DNA of 64,000 bases from Cenococcum geophilum 1.58 (Eukaryota > Ascomycota > Dothideomycetes > Gloniales > Gloniaceae), in contig KV748261.1 in assembly GCA_001692895.1 (NCBI GenBank), positions 310,001-374,000 of the forward strand, written 5' to 3'. Numbering within the stretch: the stretch's first letter is position 1; each line of letters starts with the position of its first letter. Of this stretch, positions 1 to 24,528 are shown piece by piece. Position numbers and translations under genes: made by a program. The notes under the pieces are model-generated. The model worked only from the letters and a program-made list of their open reading frames with translations, was not told where the DNA came from and searched no databases.

Positions 1-430
1 CTACGTCCCTACTATTAAGGGTGCGTATGGTATATACGCTTAGTATTATTCTCTAAATAGTCTTAAGAAGCTCCCCTAGTTCGTGGCCCTAGGGCTCCTT
101 AAGCCGGACGCGTACACTCGCTCTCTATAGTGCCGCGACTATGTTTACCGTATGGGCCGCCTACGCAGTAACGGCTGCCTAGGTTTGGACCTGTACTAGG
201 GGAACTCCTAGGCCTAGGGGTCCTTCTTTACGCGTTTCTTTTTAGATTTTCTTAATACTAGCTTTAATTTGGTTAAGCTAGGCCTTAGTCTCTTATTCTT
301 AGGTTATCTAGGGGACTAGACGCGTTAAGAGGGCTTTAATATACTATATTGCCTCTTAAATAGAGGCAAGTATCTAGTGCCGTAGAGTTTCTTCCTCCTC
401 TTTTATAAGATCGTCTTTAATTTATTTAAG
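1..430 (-). mobile_element. 5' end of a Tad-like LINE, ORF1 fragment, runs off left edge
   Basis: Read on the minus strand from about 430 down to the window edge, one frame gives a glutamate-rich start (DDLIKEEEETLRH), a coiled-coil-like stretch (LNQIKASIKKI), a proline/alanine stretch, then VRVRLKEP and IRTLNSRDV. The last part resembles the ORF1 region just before the zinc knuckles of the complete LINE in this window (YLRSGDIKVTL near 40.37 kb). That order is typical of ORF1 in fungal Tad-clade LINEs, a nucleic-acid-binding protein. Several in-frame TAA/TAG codons and the AT-rich base composition show RIP decay. The rest of the element lies outside the window. The call rests on resemblance, so confidence is moderate. 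Confidence 0.42.
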
Positions 431-779
431 TATTTTCTTTAGTTTTTGCCATTGCTGGTAGCTGTCCTTTTCGCGTTATTACCTACCTGGTTTGTGGTTC
501 GGCTCCCGCGCGTCACGACTCTTATAACTCCAGTAGGAAGCCTGCGCCCCTCCGTCGTCCCCCATGCTCTAGATGGGGGGCAACGTAGTTTTATAGGGTT
601 TCTCAGTGCGGGGAATAGGATTCCGATATCGGGTTGCTTTATTAAGTGGTTTTGGGCTGGTTTCGCTGCTGTTACGGCTTTTAGGGTTATATATATTAAT
701 AATTTATACCAGTCCCCTATATATTTAGATTATTATAATAATAACAACTACTCGAGTAGGTTATAGTGATGTTGGTTAA
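431..779. other. GC-richer leader between LINE fragment and DUF6589 relic
   Basis: Positions 440-690 are less AT-biased than both sides and may be the 5' untranslated part of the minus-strand LINE. A 106-codon open frame on the plus strand (446-766) has no recognisable domain and looks like chance. I see nothing else here. Confidence 0.3.
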
Positions 780-1790
780 TAAAGCTTTAATATACTAATA
801 AAGTATTTAAGGAGCGACTATTTTTAATCTATGGTAATTAAAAGACTATAAAGCTTATTTAGTTATATTAGGGAGAACGTACTAAGTTAATATCCGCCTA
901 TAATAGCCTATGTTAGGCTCTACCTATTCTAGCTCTTTAGTACCTAAAGCTAAACTACCTATATATAGTTATATAGTATTACTATAGTGGCGAGTAATTA
1001 GCCTAAGAGTACTCTACGCTATATACCTATATAAACCACCTAGGTTAAAGGAATATCCTAGCTAAGCGTATGCTGTTTTATTATATAGAGGAGCTAATTC
1101 TCTATAGCTTTAATACTTATATTATAGCGTTACTCCATACTTAGATTAAGGACTCCTATAATACTAAGTCGCCTATAAATATTAAGCGGTACCTTAAGAG
1201 TCTATCTCCGTAACGTCTATTAGTAGTAGTTAAGGATATCCGTATAGCTATTTTTGGCTAAAAAGTCTCTTAGGTGGCTAACTATACTAGCTAGCCTATA
1301 GAACCGCGGCGAAAGGGTTACCCTAAGTAGGCTAATAGTGCTATATCCTTATAAATACTTTCTAAGCCTACTAATACAGAGTTTCTAATATATATCCGCT
1401 TTTTATAACTAGTAGAGATATATAAAATCCTTAAGTATGCTATTAAGCTTATGGATATCGGCCTACTTAGCTATATACTCCCCTATATCTATATCTATTT
1501 TATAGGTAGTTAGAATAAAAACTATTTACTAAAGATGTTATGTTTCTTTTAGTTAACTTTAATAGATACCTATTCCCCTAAGCTCTAGTAAGCTATCCTA
1601 GTAAATAGTTTAGTAAATAACCGCGGTAAATAAAATAGTTATTACCTAATAGATCTTAATAATAAGTTACTTAATAGGGAGCTAAAGGAGCTTATACATA
1701 CTTATAGCAATTTAACATTTAACCTAGACTTACTCTTCTACTAGAGTATCTATATAACTACTAAAATATACGTAGAAGTGGAAATGCATC
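780..1790 (+). pseudogene. Degenerate DUF6589-like protein, C-terminal part
   Basis: One plus-strand frame, broken by TAA/TAG codons, gives motifs that match my memory of the fungal DUF6589 family: AIKLMDIGLL near 1439-1468, a tyrosine/isoleucine-rich strand ending in YFIGSQNKNYLLKML near 1497-1541, LVNSLVNNRGK near 1598-1630 and LTFNLDLLF near 1711-1737. The function of DUF6589 is not established; many copies sit in repetitive fungal DNA. The start is missing or unrecognisable, and the frame ends where the RIP-type base composition stops near 1790. The identification is by eye only; an unrelated transposon-borne ORF is the alternative. Confidence 0.5.
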
Positions 1791-2887
1791 CGTTTTGGGT
1801 GGATATTGGCCGCTGCTTTTGGCGGCCTTCTTACCTCGCTTAAACCCTGTCCTATCGCCGCTTTAAAGTCGCTCGGCTTGTAACTTGCAAGCCATCCCAG
1901 AGGGGTCGAAAACAGTCCCCCTCCAACAACATTCATCGGCGCTTATAGTAAATGGCTATGGCACAGCCTATAAAATCAGTGGCCAGCATCTACTTAAAGG
2001 AGCGGCCTGCCCACCTTCTCTTCACTCCCTATCCTTTCACCAGCCTCAACCACAGTACTCTTTAACTATGCCTCCTCTGTCCGCGTCCTCTCCTTTAACT
2101 GCATCCTCTCCTCCAACTCTAGCCTCTCCCCAACTCCAAGCACTTGTCTACCTACTAGACCAGTGCAGCAACACGAAGCCGGTGGTGCGGCGATTAGAAT
2201 AGCTCGAGTTTTAAGAGCGACGAGATTGCTAGTTATAGGGGCCGTGAATCCGAAGACATCACATCGAAACCCACGCTCACCTCCCTATCCCTCGTCCCGT
2301 CAGCGCCCAACGAGAAGTGGCCCGTGCGCGAGCACCAGAATCAAAAACAACGCGTGAGCGTGCTCCAAGGACTTATTTTAGCTGTAGTATACGTAAAATA
2401 CCGTTCTGCAGGAAGGGCAACCGCTAGAAATCTTATATAGAGCGATTCAACTCCAAGATTGAGCTTATATATTAAAATACTATAGTATTTGGCCTCAGCA
2501 CGCGCATCGAATTCAGTTCAATTAATTGGCGAGATCTTATCGATAACGGTTGGACGCGAATTGACGGGATAAGGGATACAAGCCTAGTCTAGACTCACAC
2601 TCAGATTCACTCTCGGACCCAGATTTACAGCCAAAATCAAACTTATCCTCGGACCTAGACACAGACCTAGACTTATACTTGGACCTAGACACGGATAACA
2701 AACTAAACATTGGCATATAGCCCGACCTCGGTCCGGAGCTAGAAGACACGGTGCTAGATTCTAAAGCTGAAGAGATATTGAAGGATATCGGAGAGCTAAG
2801 GAGGGAAGGACTAGCGAAACCAAACCATAAACCCTACACTAAGAAACTATGGAAGAGAGAAGGCGAAATCTAGAAAGCGTAAGATCG
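1791..2887 (+). pseudogene. Decayed unknown gene remnant, interrupted by hAT
   Basis: This stretch is GC-balanced and does not look like the RIP block to its left. A serine/proline-rich frame begins near 2068 (MPPLSASSPLTASSP) and carries LQALVYLLDQC and KPVVRRLE before a TAG at 2200-2202. Further on, another frame gives a strongly acidic stretch (LSSDLDTDLDLYLDLDTD, about 2644-2697) followed by a charged helix-like segment (EEILKDIGELRREGLAKPN). The hAT element starts in this last frame. I do not recognise the protein. The segment around 2319-2348 (ggcccgtgc then caccagaatcaaaa) reappears at 27719-27745, so part of it is repeated in the window. Confidence 0.35.
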
Positions 2888-2895
2888 CCTGTTCT
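2888..2895 (+). repeat. 8-bp target-site duplication of hAT, left copy
   Basis: CCTGTTCT directly precedes the left terminal repeat. The right copy at 6249-6256 is CCTATTCT; the single difference is a G-to-A transition. Eight bases is the usual target duplication of hAT transposons. Confidence 0.85.
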
Positions 2896-2916
2896 CAGAG
2901 TTGCTAACAATCAAGC
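2896..2916 (+). repeat. hAT left terminal inverted repeat
   Basis: Starts with CAGAGTTGCTAACAAT and pairs with 6228-6248 with one mismatch. Confidence 0.85.
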
Positions 2917-3519
2917 TTGGATTGGAAGATTGATTGATTGATTGGTTAAACCAATCAAGTTCTAATCAAGCCTGGAGTCTGATTTTGTCAATCAATCAAG
3001 CTTAAGGCCTCGCGATTGATTGAATTGATTGGTTTACGATTGATATACTGTATATAGGTGGTAGATATAGAGGAGCAGATATTTATGATTTTCGTGATAG
3101 ACTTTTAGTGTTGCGCCCTCTAAACAAACAATATAAACTACCTTAATAGGCAACTACTAAGCCTATTTGAATTATTTTTCCGCGCCAATAGGAATTTGTC
3201 TCTCGCTGCGCGTCCTTTATATTAACAATATACATTATTTAAACCTCATTAACCAACGTATACACTACTATTATAGCCAATAAACTCAGCTAGGCTAATA
3301 TTAACTCCCTAGACGCGGAAAATAAACCAGCCCCAACAATATCTCTCTCCAAAGCCCTAGCGCCCGACGATACCCCTAACGATAATGTTAGACGCTAAGT
3401 GTAGCTTAGTTTATGAGTCATACGGGGAGGGGGGTTCCCCCCCTACCTGTAACTTATACCTCATATATATATAGTCTCTTTTCTTCATAGATTAATCTTA
3501 ACACGAGTTCTCACAGATA

Positions 3520-5790
3520 AACTAGCCGATAATAATAATACAATTACTAGTTATAACGGTATTAAATAGGATAGACTACCTAATCTTACTAAGCCTTATT
3601 ATAGTTTAATGTGGAAAGTTAGTTGGATATATAAATATAGTTATCACTATTAAAGTATAAAGATTCCTGGCTAGATTATCTTTATTTATAAGTACTGCTA
3701 TATCTATAAGATTATTAACTCTAGAGGCGAAGGAAGATATAACGTTATAAGGGCTATAACTACTGCTTCCGCTTATCTTAAGAAGCTTATGCCTGGCTAT
3801 AGATATGATAGCGGTGGAAAGATTACGCCTATATTGTAGAAGGATTAGCTTATACTTTTAGAGTAGCTTTAAGTTAAAGGCTATAAGCTTCCTTAGTCAG
3901 CAGTTAATACCCTTATTGGTGGCTTTAACGCCTACACCTTTTAGTAAGTAGTAATTAATTGGCTAAGGGAAAATAACTATCTACTACGCGAATTTAAAAC
4001 GCCTAGTTTCCGTTAAATAATAAGGCTAGCGAACCCTAAAGCTGAGTAAGTCCTCTAGAAGAATTACTAGTTAGTAGCTAACTACATTATAGCAGAATAT
4101 AAGGCCTTACTTCTAGTAGTTAGGGTTAAACTTGCTAACGCTTAATTGCGCCTTTATATATTATTTAATAGCTAGATAACTCTAAATAATTACTACGCAC
4201 TTACCAGTATATAGGTTTACTACCTAAACTTACACGGCCGCGTAGTAGACTATATACTTACCCTTCTAGTATAGCTTAGCCGCTACTTTAGAATAAACTA
4301 TATAGAGGTTATAGGTAATATATTAGCCAACTTCTATATTATACCTAAGCGCCTTAGCTACTTTATAATAGATAATAAGCTAAAGAATAATATAACGCTA
4401 GAAGCCTTATCTAAAAGGTTTAACTTTAATAAGGATAAGAGGTGTAGGCGATATGCTTGCTATATACTTAATCTTATTGCGTAATAGATTATATAGGGTA
4501 AGGATAAGGACGCCTTTTAAAATAAGAATAAAAACCTTTCTATAAACCCCTTTAAGTTATATAAGTTCTGCCGTCTAATTTATTCTAGGAAGAAGAGGAG
4601 TTCCTTTAGAAGTGGTGAAAGGAGGGCCTACTTAGTGCTCTATGCAATCTTATTAACTCTATTAATATGCTATAGATAATTAAGCTTTTTAAAAGCTTCT
4701 AGATAAGGGCAAATAATCTACCTAATCTAAACTTTAAAGTAAAGCAGCTTATTAAGCTAGTAAGGACTAGATAGAATAGCTACTTTAATACCTTTATACG
4801 CGCTACTAAGCTTTAACTAGTGCTTAATGCATTTGCGTTATATAAGCTTAATAAATATAATAAGGAGGTTACTTTAGCTAAGGTAACTATAATTAGGAAG
4901 GGTAGGGAGTATAAGGAGGTTAAGTCTTACCTTTAGATAAGGGTTAGAGGCCTAGATATATATAATTAGACGGTTATAAATAAAATATATTAAAATCCTT
5001 TAGCCGCTTAAGGAGGCTATAAGCTTACTTAAAGGCAGGGGTAAAACTAGGGCTTATGGCGCTATATAGGAAGTTATCCCTATATTTAACTGGCTAATCT
5101 AATTGCTTAAAGCTAGAAAGGATTATATTACTAAGGCTACTTAGGAATGTTATCCTAATTAAGAGGCTATAGAGGATTATATTAAGATTAATGTTAACGC
5201 TATATAGGTAAAGCTTAATAAGTATTACTCTAAACTTAACAAATCGCCGGTATATTATATAGTAGTAGTTCTTTATCTACGCCTTAAACGCTTCTATATA
5301 AACGTATAGAAAGATTAGCTTTATTAGATTAGAAGCTATAACTCTACCTTTTAGTTACTTTAGGTAGAGTATAAGCGGCAGCCAACTATATTAACTTCTA
5401 TAACTATATAACCCCCTTAGAAGAAGCTAAAACTCTATTCTAGCTGTGATTTATATATTAACGCGTATACTAGGATAGAGGACGTAGATAAGGTAGAGGC
5501 TAATAATAAGTATAAGCTTTAGAAGAAGCTTAAGCCTTTAGATAAGGACTACCTACTTACTAATAATCCTATTAAGTATTAGTAGTAGCTTTATATAGAG
5601 TATCTAAGGCTAAGCGAGTTTGCCCTAGATATAATAACAATTCTAGCCTTAAGTAGTAATTGCGAGCGAGGATTTAATAAGGCTAGTAATTTACTTAAAA
5701 AGTAATAATTATAACTACAGCCGCCTATAATAGCCGCCTTACAGTATAGTCGCTCTTAGAAGAAGATGGGGCTTAAAGCGCCGTAAGACC
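3520..5790 (+). pseudogene. hAT transposase, degenerate
   Basis: The fragments occur in the right order for a fungal hAT transposase, a DDE-type cut-and-paste enzyme with an N-terminal zinc finger and a C-terminal dimerisation domain. Near 4340-4490 the frame reads IPKRLSYFIIDN, then ALSKRFNF and CYILNLIA, which corresponds to the conserved block ending in HILNL. Near 5629-5700 it reads ALSSNCERGFNKASNLL, the signature of the hAT dimerisation region, followed by a tyrosine/serine-rich tail ending near KKMGLKAP. Many codons have become TAA or TAG through apparent CAA, CAG and TGG changes, so no protein of useful length could be made. Confidence 0.8.
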
Positions 5791-6227
5791 TAGCTAGTAA
5801 GTAGAGTAATTTATATCTAGCTTGTAGCTAACGCCCTTACCTATACTAGAAACTTTAGCTCTATAATAGGATTATAAAGAACAAGCTATTTCTATACCTA
5901 CGCCCGTAAGGAGCTCCTCGCGACTGTTATTACGAGAGCTTTTAGCTTCTATCTTAAACTCGGCGAAGCGGAGGGGCCCTTAAAGGAGAAGGCTAAACGG
6001 ATACTATATTTTAATATTATTGGGGTTATAGTAGTAGGTAGTTAAATTGTTCCTTAGGCCGATTTTAGAACTTTAAAAATTAACTACAACACCATGCCAA
6101 GACTCTATTTTATCAATCTTCTAATTAATTTGCAATCAAGCCGGCCAAAATCCTCCCAATCAATCATCAATCAAGCCTAGAGCTGGATTTTATCAATTAA
6201 GTCAAGTTTGGGGTCTCAAGCTTGCTT

Positions 6228-19730: not shown

Positions 19731-19815
19731 CGGCCGGTACAGGACTTGAACATGTAACCTTGCCCTTAAATATTAATATTAGGAGGGGCACGCGCTACCA
19801 TTGCGCCAACCCTAT
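19731..19815 (-). tRNA. tRNA-Arg(CCT)-like gene with 13-nt intron, possibly a pseudogene
   Basis: Read on the minus strand the cloverleaf parts are in place: D arm GCGC-loop-GCGC, anticodon stem TGCCC/GGGCA (five pairs), a 20-nt anticodon loop that equals a 7-nt loop CTCCTAA plus a 13-nt insertion after position 37 (the normal eukaryotic intron site), variable loop AGGTT, and T arm with TTCAAGT loop. The anticodon would be CCT, decoding AGG as arginine. A T7 run follows. The weak point is the acceptor stem: ATAGGGT against ACCGGCC pairs at only three of seven positions, and one T-stem pair is mismatched. That suggests decay, possibly including RIP, although the rest is well kept. Confidence 0.6.
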
Positions 19816-20900: not shown

Positions 20901-21430
20901 AGCTAAAAGGATAGTGTATAAAAAAGATTAAGATCGACTTTGTAGCTTGTGGTTTAATATATATATACCTAAATAAGCGCCCGCAGGTCACGTAACGTCA
21001 CAACCGTCACAGTTAGAAAACTAAGATTTTATATTTTTGTCCTTATTTATAGCTATTAACTACACTATACTTCCTAAATTAACTTATAGAAATAGCTAAA
21101 ATCTACTAAAAAGCTTTATTAAAAAGCTTTATATAGTCTTAAAGTTTAATATAATATTAAATCTATTTTAGAAAAAGGTAGAAATATTCCGGAACGAGCC
21201 GTGTACTGGTATTAGGCAGAATAATACCCTTTAGGGTAATAAGCACGGATATTTTAATGTATTTTTATCTTATTTTGGATACAAATCTACGCATTTTAAT
21301 TAGCGTAATTAATATGCGCTTTTAACCGGATACGCCAGGATAGTGTAGTAAGAAACCTAAAAATTTCCTAAAGCTAAGAAAAAAAAAAAAACTTTAGCCG
21401 AGCGCGGGGATTGTGAACGCAACCTTACTA
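20901..21430. other. AT-rich spacer before MITE cluster
   Basis: No gene seen. It contains a short palindrome ataccctttagggtaat near 21222-21239 and a run of about 13 A near 21380. The last bases, aaccttacTA, are the left side of the MITE target site. Confidence 0.35.
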
Positions 21431-22417
21431 CAGTGATGTGCACGACCAGCTTCACCCCCCCCCTTTAGCGAGTTGCAGATTCGGTACGCGCATCCAATTT
21501 CGCCTGGTTGCCACCAGCTGTACAGTGATGTGCATGACCAGCTTCACCCCTCCCCTTTGGCGAGGGCTCCAAAATTTTAAATTCGGCACGCGCATCCAAT
21601 TTCGCCTGGTTGCCACCAGCTGTACATAGTAATTGTAGCGAACGGCTGTGGCTGCACGCAGGGACCTTTTTGGTTGCCCTGGAGAATCGCCTTGGTTGGC
21701 CAGGAGAACCAAATTGAAGACGTACGCTTCTTCCTCTCCCCCCTCCCGTTGTGGCCGCCAAAACGCGAGTACAACGCTGTCTCTGCAGAGAGGTCAATGG
21801 AATTTGGCAATATCGTACGGGTGGAAATCTCACGATATTTGACAAAGATCACGACACTGCAGAGAAAGGCCGATCGCTGTCCGCAGGTTCTTGCAGCCAA
21901 GCATACAGCTTCGCTACAATTACTATGTACAGTTGGTGGCGATTTAGCGGACCCGCGTACCGTAGCGAAATGTTTTTTTTTTCAAGGGGGGGTGAAGCTG
22001 GTCGTGCACATCACTGTACATAGTAATTGTAGCGAACGGCTGTGGCTGCACCCAAGGTCCTTTTTGGTTGCCCTGGAGAATCGCCTTGGTTGGCCAGGAG
22101 AATCAAATTGAAGACGACGCTTCCTTTTCTCCCCTTTAACTATGCCTCCATTATGCCCGCCAAAACGCGAATACAACGCTGCCTCTGCAGAGAGGTTGAC
22201 GAAATTTGGCAATATCGTACGGTGGAAGCCTCACGATATTTGACAAAGATCACGACACTGCGGAGGAAGGCCGCCAGAAGTAATGTTCTTGTAGCCAAGC
22301 ATACGACTTCGCTACAATTACTATGTACAGCTGGTGGCAACCAGGCGAAATTGGATGCGCGTACCGAATCTGCAACTCGCTAAAGGGGGGGGGTGAAGCT
22401 GGTCGTGCACATCACTG
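21431..22417 (+). mobile_element. MITE A: fold-back element, interrupted by MITE B
   Basis: After removing B and one TA (21523-22018) the element is 491 bp. It begins CAGTGATGTGCACGACCAGC and ends with the inverted copy, flanked by TA on both sides (21429-21430, 22418-22419). Its two terminal repeats agree over about 109 bp with no difference that I can see. The TA target and the CAGT ends suggest mobilisation by a Tc1/mariner-type transposase, although none is encoded here. Unlike its surroundings it shows no RIP bias. Confidence 0.8.
21523..22016 (+). mobile_element. MITE B: same family, inserted into MITE A
   Basis: 494 bp flanked by TA at 21521-21522 and 22017-22018. It has the same orientation and the same core as A (ggacctttttggttgccctg, gcctctctgcagagag-like words). 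The sequence on either side, ccaccagctg TA and TA catagtaatt, rejoins to the exact word found inside B itself, which proves insertion into a sister copy. Its terminal repeats have drifted more than those of A. Confidence 0.85.
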
Positions 22418-22419
22418 TA

Positions 22420-22903
22420 CAGTACATTGCACGACCAGCTTCCCCCCTTGAAAAAAAAAGTATATTTCGCTTCGGTACGCGGGCTCGCCAAATCGCCACC
22501 AACAAGCCGTATGCTTGGCTGCAAGAACTTTGCTTCTGGCGGACTTGAGATCGGCCTTCCTCCGCAGTGTCGTGATCTTTATCAAATATCGTGAGGCTTT
22601 CACCCGTACGACATTGCAAATTCCATCGACCTCTCTGCAGAGACAGCGTTGTACTCGCGTTTTGGCGGCCACAACGGGAGGGGTAGTTAAGGGGGGGAGG
22701 AAGAAGCGTACGTCTTCAATTTTGGTTCTCCTGGCCAACCAAGGCGATTCTCTATGGCAACCAAAAAGGTCCTTGCGTGTAGCCACAGCCGTTCGCTACA
22801 ATTACTATGTACAGTTGGTGGCAGTCAGGCGAGATTGGATGCGCGTACCGAATTTGAAATTTCGTAGCGCTCGCTAAAGGAGGGGGGGGCGTGCAATGCA
22901 CTG
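22420..22903 (-). mobile_element. MITE C: same family, inverted, abutting A
   Basis: 484 bp, opening with cagtacattgcacgaccagc and closing with gcgtgcaatgcactg. It shares TA 22418-22419 with A and TA 22904-22905 with D. The internal core is the reverse complement of A and B (gccttcctccgcagtgtcgt, ctctctgcagagacagc). Confidence 0.85.
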
Positions 22904-22905
22904 TA

Positions 22906-23729
22906 CGCTTTGCGAAAGTATTGCGAAAATCAAATTAAGCGAGCCTCCCGCCCGCAGACTGCTCGTTTTACAAAAATGCTTTTACAACCACCAAAAATAA
23001 GTCTTATTTTATAAGATTAGTAAGTAAAACTATAAAATAGATACTGTTTTACAATTTTAAATATATGGCAGCTTAGTAAGTGATGTGGTTGTAAAATTCT
23101 AGGTGGTAAAACATCAGGCTAAGTATTACCCCTCTATCAAAACAATATACCCCCTATTACCCTACTAATACGGCTCTATATTTTATATATAGGGGCATAT
23201 TTTATAGCCCTATAGTAGGGCTATAAAATAAGCCCTTATTTATATAAATTGGAGCGGTATTGGTAGAGTTATATAGGGTACTGAATAATGGCTATAAAAC
23301 TTAAATTGAGGCTCTGCGCTGACTAACCTAACCCCTCTACCCCCAAAAATAAGCACCCCTTATAACTCTACTAAAATAGCCATAAAATATATAAATAAGG
23401 GCTCGTTTTGTAGCCCTAAAATAGGGCTATAAAATATACCTTTATATATAAAATATAAAGCTATATTAGTGGGGCTATAGGGGGTGTATTGTTTTGATAG
23501 AGGAGGTAATACTTAGCCTAACGCTTTACCACCTAAAACCCCACAACTACATTATTTACTAAGCTGCCATATATTTAAAATTGTAAAGCGGTATCTATTT
23601 TATAGTTCTATTTACTAATTTTATAAAATAAGACTTATTTTTAGTGGTTATAAAAGCATTTTTATAAAATAAGTGTCTGCGGGCGGGAGGCTCGCTTAAT
23701 TTTGATTTTCGCAATACTTTCGCAAAGCG
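22906..23729. mobile_element. MITE D: 824-bp long-arm fold-back element
   Basis: Begins CGCTTTGCGAAAGTATTGCG and ends with its inverted copy. The arms run through gcgagcctcccgcccgcag and on towards the centre near 23320, so nearly the whole element can fold into one hairpin. TA lies directly outside both ends (22904-22905, 23730-23731). It is AT-rich with repeated ttataaaata words. No coding sequence. The family differs from A, B and C. Confidence 0.85.
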
Positions 23730-23731
23730 TA

Positions 23732-24528
23732 GTAAGATTAAGACTGGAAAGTGTTAACTGGAAGTTAAACGTATTTAAAGATAACTTACGTCTTATGCTC
23801 TGCTAGTGACTTAGCCCGGCTTATTATAAACGTGGAGTGGATAAATAAAAATATTTATCGGTAGATTGCGAGCACCTGCTACTTCTACCAACAACATTAA
23901 ACTTCTCCATTTTTAAGTTATACGGCTTTTGCTTTCCCGCCCACTATCCCTATATATATACCTATATAGAGCTCCGCATATCTAGGTACGAAGGAGGTAA
24001 TTATGCTGGGTTATACTCGGCTTTCTCTGCTTCACCCACCCTCCTTGCTACTACGTAGCTACAGGCCTAGCGCCGGCTGTGCTTGCAGAGATCGCCCCCT
24101 TTATGCCTATACCTCTAAATATTAATATTGTTATACGGCTCTTCTTCTTTAGATGGTGACGAATAAAGAATAAGATAAATAAATGTATATAGAGACTGTA
24201 AAACTACATTCGAAAGCTTATATCTGGGAATTATTTGGAAACACAAACTATGCACATCCATTCACTCACTAGCACGCCACGAAAATTACTCGCGCATTAA
24301 CCTCATCCAGGCCCAAAAACCATCGCCTCTATTTACATACACGCGCGCTCTACAAATTATTGTCCACTCGTGCCTGCCGCCATACCAGATTCAACTCACA
24401 ACAGATAAAAGCCTTCTTTTGATCCCTAAGAATACCACCTTCCTGCGTCTAATTTCTTTATATCCGGAGACGTTTTACGTCATTTTTCATGTCCAGTGCG
24501 CTCCGAATGCGCAGCCGTAGTTTACACA
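23732..24528. other. Intergenic DNA upstream of the cysteine-rich/AT-hook gene
   Basis: Moderately AT-rich. The first bases, gtaagatt, are the right half of the palindromic MITE target. TATATATA words occur near 23952-23970 and a CT-rich stretch near 24420-24470. No gene recognised; it presumably holds the promoter of the gene starting at 24529. Confidence 0.4.

Follow-up and report, generated by a model that had tools for sequence, protein, structure and literature searches.

A cluster of four MITEs in the genome of Cenococcum geophilum 1.58 seems, when its members are taken away, to collapse onto one palindromic TA. Was a single palindromic site used repeatedly, did several elements arrive as one block, or do the TAs at the ends of resident elements themselves draw new insertions? 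We re-examined the 64,000-nucleotide stretch of DNA that holds the cluster (the window; G000:C86:310001-374000) and searched the genome it belongs to (177.2 Mb, 162 contigs). The cluster is a nested MITE pile, which is a known kind of arrangement. It is very probable that this pile was formed by successive cut-and-paste insertions at TA, with element D arriving first, A and C following into the left end of D and B into A, and that the A-family machinery favours TAs at resident ends. The order of these events is one that we infer from the anatomy.

Anatomy of the pile

A first-pass annotation had described elements A, C and D as lying end to end, each separated by exactly one TA, and B as lying inside A, also at a TA. 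The window letters bear out the four elements at their given positions, the single TA at the A/C contact (22418-22419) and at the C/D contact (22904-22905), and the insertion of B in A. The observation as a whole is partly confirmed and its interpretation partly supported. The features follow one another along the window as TA (21426-21427), C (21428), the A-C block, the rest of D, G (23732) and TA (23733-23734):

21426-21427: left TA target duplication of D, mirrored at 23733-23734; TAC stands outside most D-type ends
21428: first base (C) of D, split from the remaining D by the A-C block; TA-CTAYSCTTTGCG is the usual reading of D ends
21429-22419: element A, interrupted by B, with TA at either end; 495 bp when restored without B, 112-bp perfect terminal repeats
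21521-22018: element B, 498 bp, of A's family, in A at CTG-TA-CAT
22418-22419: TA common to A and C, present in a single copy
22418-22905: element C, 488 bp, of the family of A and B (84%)
22904-22905: TA within D's terminus (CTACGC), duplicated by the A-C insertion and distinct from D's target duplication
22904-23732 plus the C at 21428: element D, a foldback MITE, 83% self-complementary over its length
23733-23734: right TA target duplication of D, preceded by the G at 23732

Two unrelated MITE families are present, as had been proposed. With a pairwise identity of 82-84%, A, B and C are three divergent lineages of one MITE family, and D has no match to any of them at E 0.001. With lengths of 488-498 bp, inverted ends and many copies, A, B and C have the properties of MITEs, and a TA duplication with unconserved outer bases was found at 123 exact ends and in 26 two-ended stretches, of which at least one is misjoined at A/B. 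The left terminal repeat of C has 8 bp that are absent from its right one. The site entered by B, CTG-TA-CAT, is present in uninterrupted form at the other end of A, in B and in C.

End-to-end junctions of the A family

The TAs at element ends are used repeatedly, as the first-pass annotation had supposed, and this targeting of ends is real. An A-family end pattern tolerating 3 mismatches found 247 + 235 sites genome-wide, compared with 2 + 2 for a control pattern. Two A-family-type ends with one common TA occur at 16 places with varied partners, and at none for the control pattern. Chance would give 0.003-0.024 such places with 250-500 copies and 0.04-0.09 with 1000, in a rough model of random placement at TA densities of 0.06-0.13 that ignores regional bias; the copy counts of the A and D families are lower bounds.

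Exact-core ends point in the same direction. These 123 ends (62 + 61) come from two end searches; the 62 are the matches with zero mismatches among the 100 listed in one search. By their letters, 12 abut another end (0.37 with shuffled flanks) and 7 lie at internal TAs of the A family (1.5 with shuffled flanks). The 12 abutting ends form 11 places, nine of them shared with the set of 16 end-to-end places, while C34:1179676 and C51:75881 are recognized by their letters only. When all seven internal matches are taken as real, end TAs are favoured per TA about 19-fold (11 places) or about 15-fold (nine places). The abutting fraction thus amounts to a measurable end preference, and the target choice of such transposases may be countable within one genome.

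Recent tandem duplication does not account for the four stacks compared, since the partners in the window, C26, C3 and C34 stacks are only 75-84% alike over their longest match; a fifth stack, on C38, is comparable only over a 107-bp stub. A further possibility is that A-C or A-C-D was mobilized as one composite block, which the first-pass annotation had offered as one explanation. Very similar terminal letters at two of the 16 end-to-end places (C1:5942196 and C22:1107983) suggest that a pair may occasionally be copied together. The A-C combination of end letters is nevertheless found at only one of the 16 places, the window itself, and, among the 16 D copies read (not all complete), just one has the A-C pair. 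In the readable part of the families the A-C-D order was not seen at many loci with different flanks. We therefore consider arrival as a block very improbable for this pile, and the D copy described next, which differs from that of the window in its flanks and in its family members, argues against it as well.

The D copies read comprise 16 distinct loci (L001-L014, L016 and L067), some partial, with duplicate loci counted once. One of them, on C34 (L008, L039), reads CATAC-TA-element 1-TA-element 2-TA-TACTTTACG...D...GCATAG-TA-AAACC, so that two adjoining A-family elements occupy the TA of D's terminus that is also occupied in the window. Element 1 is 81% identical to A, and element 2 is 77% and 91% identical to C over two separate pieces. 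The order is the same and the family members are others, which argues for an independent event. This stack is not flawless: element 1 has 704 bp, element 2 is without about 39 bases of one end, and another A-family element breaks up the D copy at a further position. At a third D locus (L005, on C64) an A-like element (68%) ends at the outer TA of D, and either of the two may be the earlier. Altogether, an A-family neighbour lies flush with one D end in 3 of the 16 D copies read, some of which are partial.

Could the pile reflect elements gathering at random in a gene-poor, AT-rich graveyard, with no preference for ends? It does lie at the edge of an AT-rich, TA/AT-skewed region. Against this, the 16 junctions compare with 0.003-0.09 expected for 250-1000 copies, and end TAs are used about 15 to 19 times more than internal TAs of the A family, making chance alone a very unlikely explanation.

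Ends of D and the palindrome

The joined flanks form a 12-bp perfect palindrome, cttacTAgtaag, and these letters are as the first-pass annotation gave them. That annotation inferred repeated use of one strongly preferred palindromic TA, at which A, C and D would each have inserted. The ends of D across the genome lead us to a different reading. In a search allowing up to 3 mismatches and reporting eight flanking bases, TAC stands just outside the terminus in 45 of 54 D-type ends, leaving nine that are without it. Of the 54, 43 have TA as the inner dinucleotide and the other 11 have TG; TAC stands outside every one of these 11. The D copies read at individual loci are likewise flanked mostly by TAC...GTA. 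Taken together, the outer TAC and the inner TA or TG define the terminus of D as C-TA-YSCTTTGCG (or CTGTGC and similar), with the target duplication being the TA before the C. D thus has inverted ends and a TA duplication, three bases outside the end drawn by the first-pass annotation, whose limits (22904-23731) gave 828 bp. With the duplication 3 bp farther out and the first base C at 21428, A and C interrupt the left end of D. Among the 54 ends, the left D end of the window is the sole one preceded by CTG, which is the end of C.

It follows that the four elements do not use one TA: D sits at a different TA, 3 bp out, and the inner TA is part of its terminus. The palindrome consists mostly of D's own ends, namely its duplication, the duplicated TA and its end bases, to which two outer base pairs that happen to match are added, and as such requires no explanation past these. 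One of the outer pairs involves the T adjoining D's duplication, which is itself common (26 of 54 D-type ends). The palindromic-site reading goes wrong because the boundary of D was misplaced: what appeared to be a target-duplication TA is part of an element end, and with the boundary corrected the striking palindrome mostly vanishes.

Apart from the letters of the joined flanks, a second stack (L069), centred on a long and perfect palindrome whose arms have 78 bases each when the TA is counted in both, would fit a preference for palindromic TAs. The single-site reading is contradicted by the 11 D-type ends that keep the outer TAC with TG in place of the inner TA, and A-family targets show no excess of palindromes beside the TA. 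In 28 pairs of A-family ends, which exclude the 67 of 123 ends without an exact partner within 380-620 bp, the flanks matched at positions ±1 to ±4 in 8, 8, 8 and 8 pairs (7.9, 7.8, 7.2 and 7.0 expected), which is the expected level. At ±5 and ±6 there were 12 and 10 matches against 7.1 and 7.6 expected, and at ±7 and ±8 there were 2 and 4 against 7.3 and 7.4. The C86 pair among the 28 joins the start of A to the end of B and is no true element, and at least two pairs (C26, C110) are flanked on one side by another element. The preference for palindromic TAs suggested by the first-pass annotation is not seen in these counts, and we regard insertion of A, C and D at one palindromic TA as very improbable.

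The empty site proposed by the first-pass annotation has no exact copy in the genome (best match, 2 mismatches); a frequent palindrome, AAGCTTACTAGTAAGCTT, is among its 89 matches. For the corrected empty site, a genome search allowing up to 3 mismatches found nothing. The window flanks are unmatched in the loci read besides their own place, and in the window they match only a short tandem repeat.

In the favoured history of nested insertion, D would first have entered the TA in AACCT-TA-AGATT, duplicating it (21426-21427, 23733-23734). A and C, in either order, would then have entered the TA one base inside the left end of D (C-TA-CGCTTT), the second of them using the TA duplicated by the first, and B, of the same family, would later have entered A. 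Throughout, the A-family machinery would prefer TAs at the ends of resident elements, both its own and D's, over other TAs. That D instead came last, beside C at its right TA and losing its first base, would equally give one TA common to C and D. In that case, however, the C at 21428 and the TA at 21426-21427 would match the mirrored G and TA at 23732-23734 by coincidence only, and the D copy on C34 has this mirror too; we regard this order as very unlikely.

Several features of D deserve mention in their own right. Its core (23131-23506, about 228-603 of the query) recurs without D's ends at many places, clustered on some contigs, with 79-88% identity in the best matches and lower values in others, and a 504-bp form of D in L067 has a different core. 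The core may be a second element that D has taken up. Pairs of opposed D-type ends, with 11-18 kb between them, were found at G000:C51:166182-177511, C67:565171-577344 and C42:116942-134535; these could be very large relatives, copies filled with other insertions, or termini belonging to different copies. The searches yielded no source for D, and none of the 150 listed DDE_1 places falls within these 11-18 kb end pairs.

Target choice and a candidate transposase of the A family

What guides the A family to ends may lie in the flanking letters. The trimer CTG precedes the TA at 14 of 123 ends, mostly at element ends, and TAC at 10 of 123, compared with 0.6-1.4 and 1.9-3.7 expected, respectively, from the window only. 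The end bias could be either a sequence preference (CTG-TA, TAC-TA) or an attraction by proteins bound at resident ends. Since most A-family ends offer CTG-TA, sequence preference alone could explain much of the end preference, and because CTG-TA is concentrated in A-family elements, terminus and motif preference are inseparable here. A stronger proposal is that the ends of resident TA elements, both those of the A family and those of an unrelated one, attract the A-family transposition complex; every insertion would then create a fresh preferred site, and piles would build up unaided. We offer this tentatively, as a conceivable but rather doubtful mechanism. If it were true, a terminus-directed system of the Tc1/mariner type would confine many insertions to existing elements and spare genes. 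Six A-family copies were also observed at the TA of GAGC-TA-GACGAC, or close forms, in another repeat (C1:1889375, C4:2490949, C11:2024641, C22:946395, L030 and L044).

The Tc1/mariner-type source named in the first-pass annotation gains support for the A family. A 3,674-bp element (L071; C21:699330-703025) has A-type ends, 96% identical to A over 112 bp, and TA on both sides. A 59-amino acid piece in it matches DDE_3 (PF13358; E=7.7e-12), which we take to be a marker of Tc1/mariner-type elements. Its frame, read without splicing, is broken by stops; two other pieces gave no match, and its first 165-amino acid frame has no match in Pfam or PDB. The A family is probably of the Tc1/mariner type, and L071 offers the leading candidate for the kind of transposase that would have moved A, B and C, which may have been mobilized in trans.

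Another long pair of A-type ends, in L072 (G000:C45:610720-615920), showed no transposase-like frame among frames of at least 90 amino acids. A stretch at about 1001-4575 of this locus is bounded by TACAGGGTCC...GGACCCTGTA, with inverted arms of 119 bp that are 98% identical, and is probably a large element of another family. The genome is rich in DDE_1 matches, and among the 150 of 713 DDE_1 candidates that were scored and listed none lies between long-spaced A or D end pairs, as judged by comparing positions by eye. A DDE_1 piece in L069, outside these 150, was considered as the A-family source and rejected, as it is part of a different TA element that had entered an A-family copy. In this locus (G000:C10:907540-913960; 1-5875), together with L070, the A-family copy (38-3286) holds that TA element at 285-3004 and has one TA in common with a second element (3285-5838; PF13843 piece at 3959-4228), both elements being centred on the 78-base-armed palindrome mentioned above.

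Mimp elements have inverted ends and a TA duplication, and the terminal sequences of Trem, Submariner and mimp are not known to match those of the A family. Paracoccidioides Trem (PMC2836289) and Pandoravirus Submariner MITEs (PMC4495683) share inverted ends and a TA duplication with the elements studied here, and the mimp of Fusarium (PMC3599309) offers a comparison as a MITE of the Tc1/mariner kind. Set beside these three, the A family has a full-length relative with a DDE_3 transposase piece.

In plants, both MITE clusters that arise by mutual insertion and side-by-side arrays are already known. Clusters through insertion into resident MITEs are described in rice and maize (Jiang and Wessler 2001, as cited in PMC5907723), where, according to the citing paper, insertion into elements is commoner than adjacent insertion; here the end TA is favoured about 15 to 19 times per TA, and the host is a fungus rather than a grass. 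Pineapple Ac-mMITEs (PMC8449440) and guayule SaTar elements (PMC5907723) form microsatellite-targeted arrays and resemble the pile as non-autonomous elements brought side by side through independent insertions. They are described as Mutator-like, microsatellite-linked and not nested, whereas the pile of A, B, C and D combines a single common TA with nesting. No description of an exact end-TA pile in a fungus was found in the open-licence literature searched.

AT-rich parts of the genome have strong TA/AT skew, which together with the many DDE_1 matches and a DUF3716 match suggests a filamentous ascomycete. The pile (window 22000-24000) stands where an AT-rich region with TA/AT skew (RIP-like) gives way to balanced, gene-like sequence from about 24000. 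The single Rfam match in the window is a tRNA at 19736-19811, away from the pile. Among the window's frames, 24496-24927 matches DUF3716 (PF12511) and 30076-30642 matches APH phosphotransferase (PF01636).
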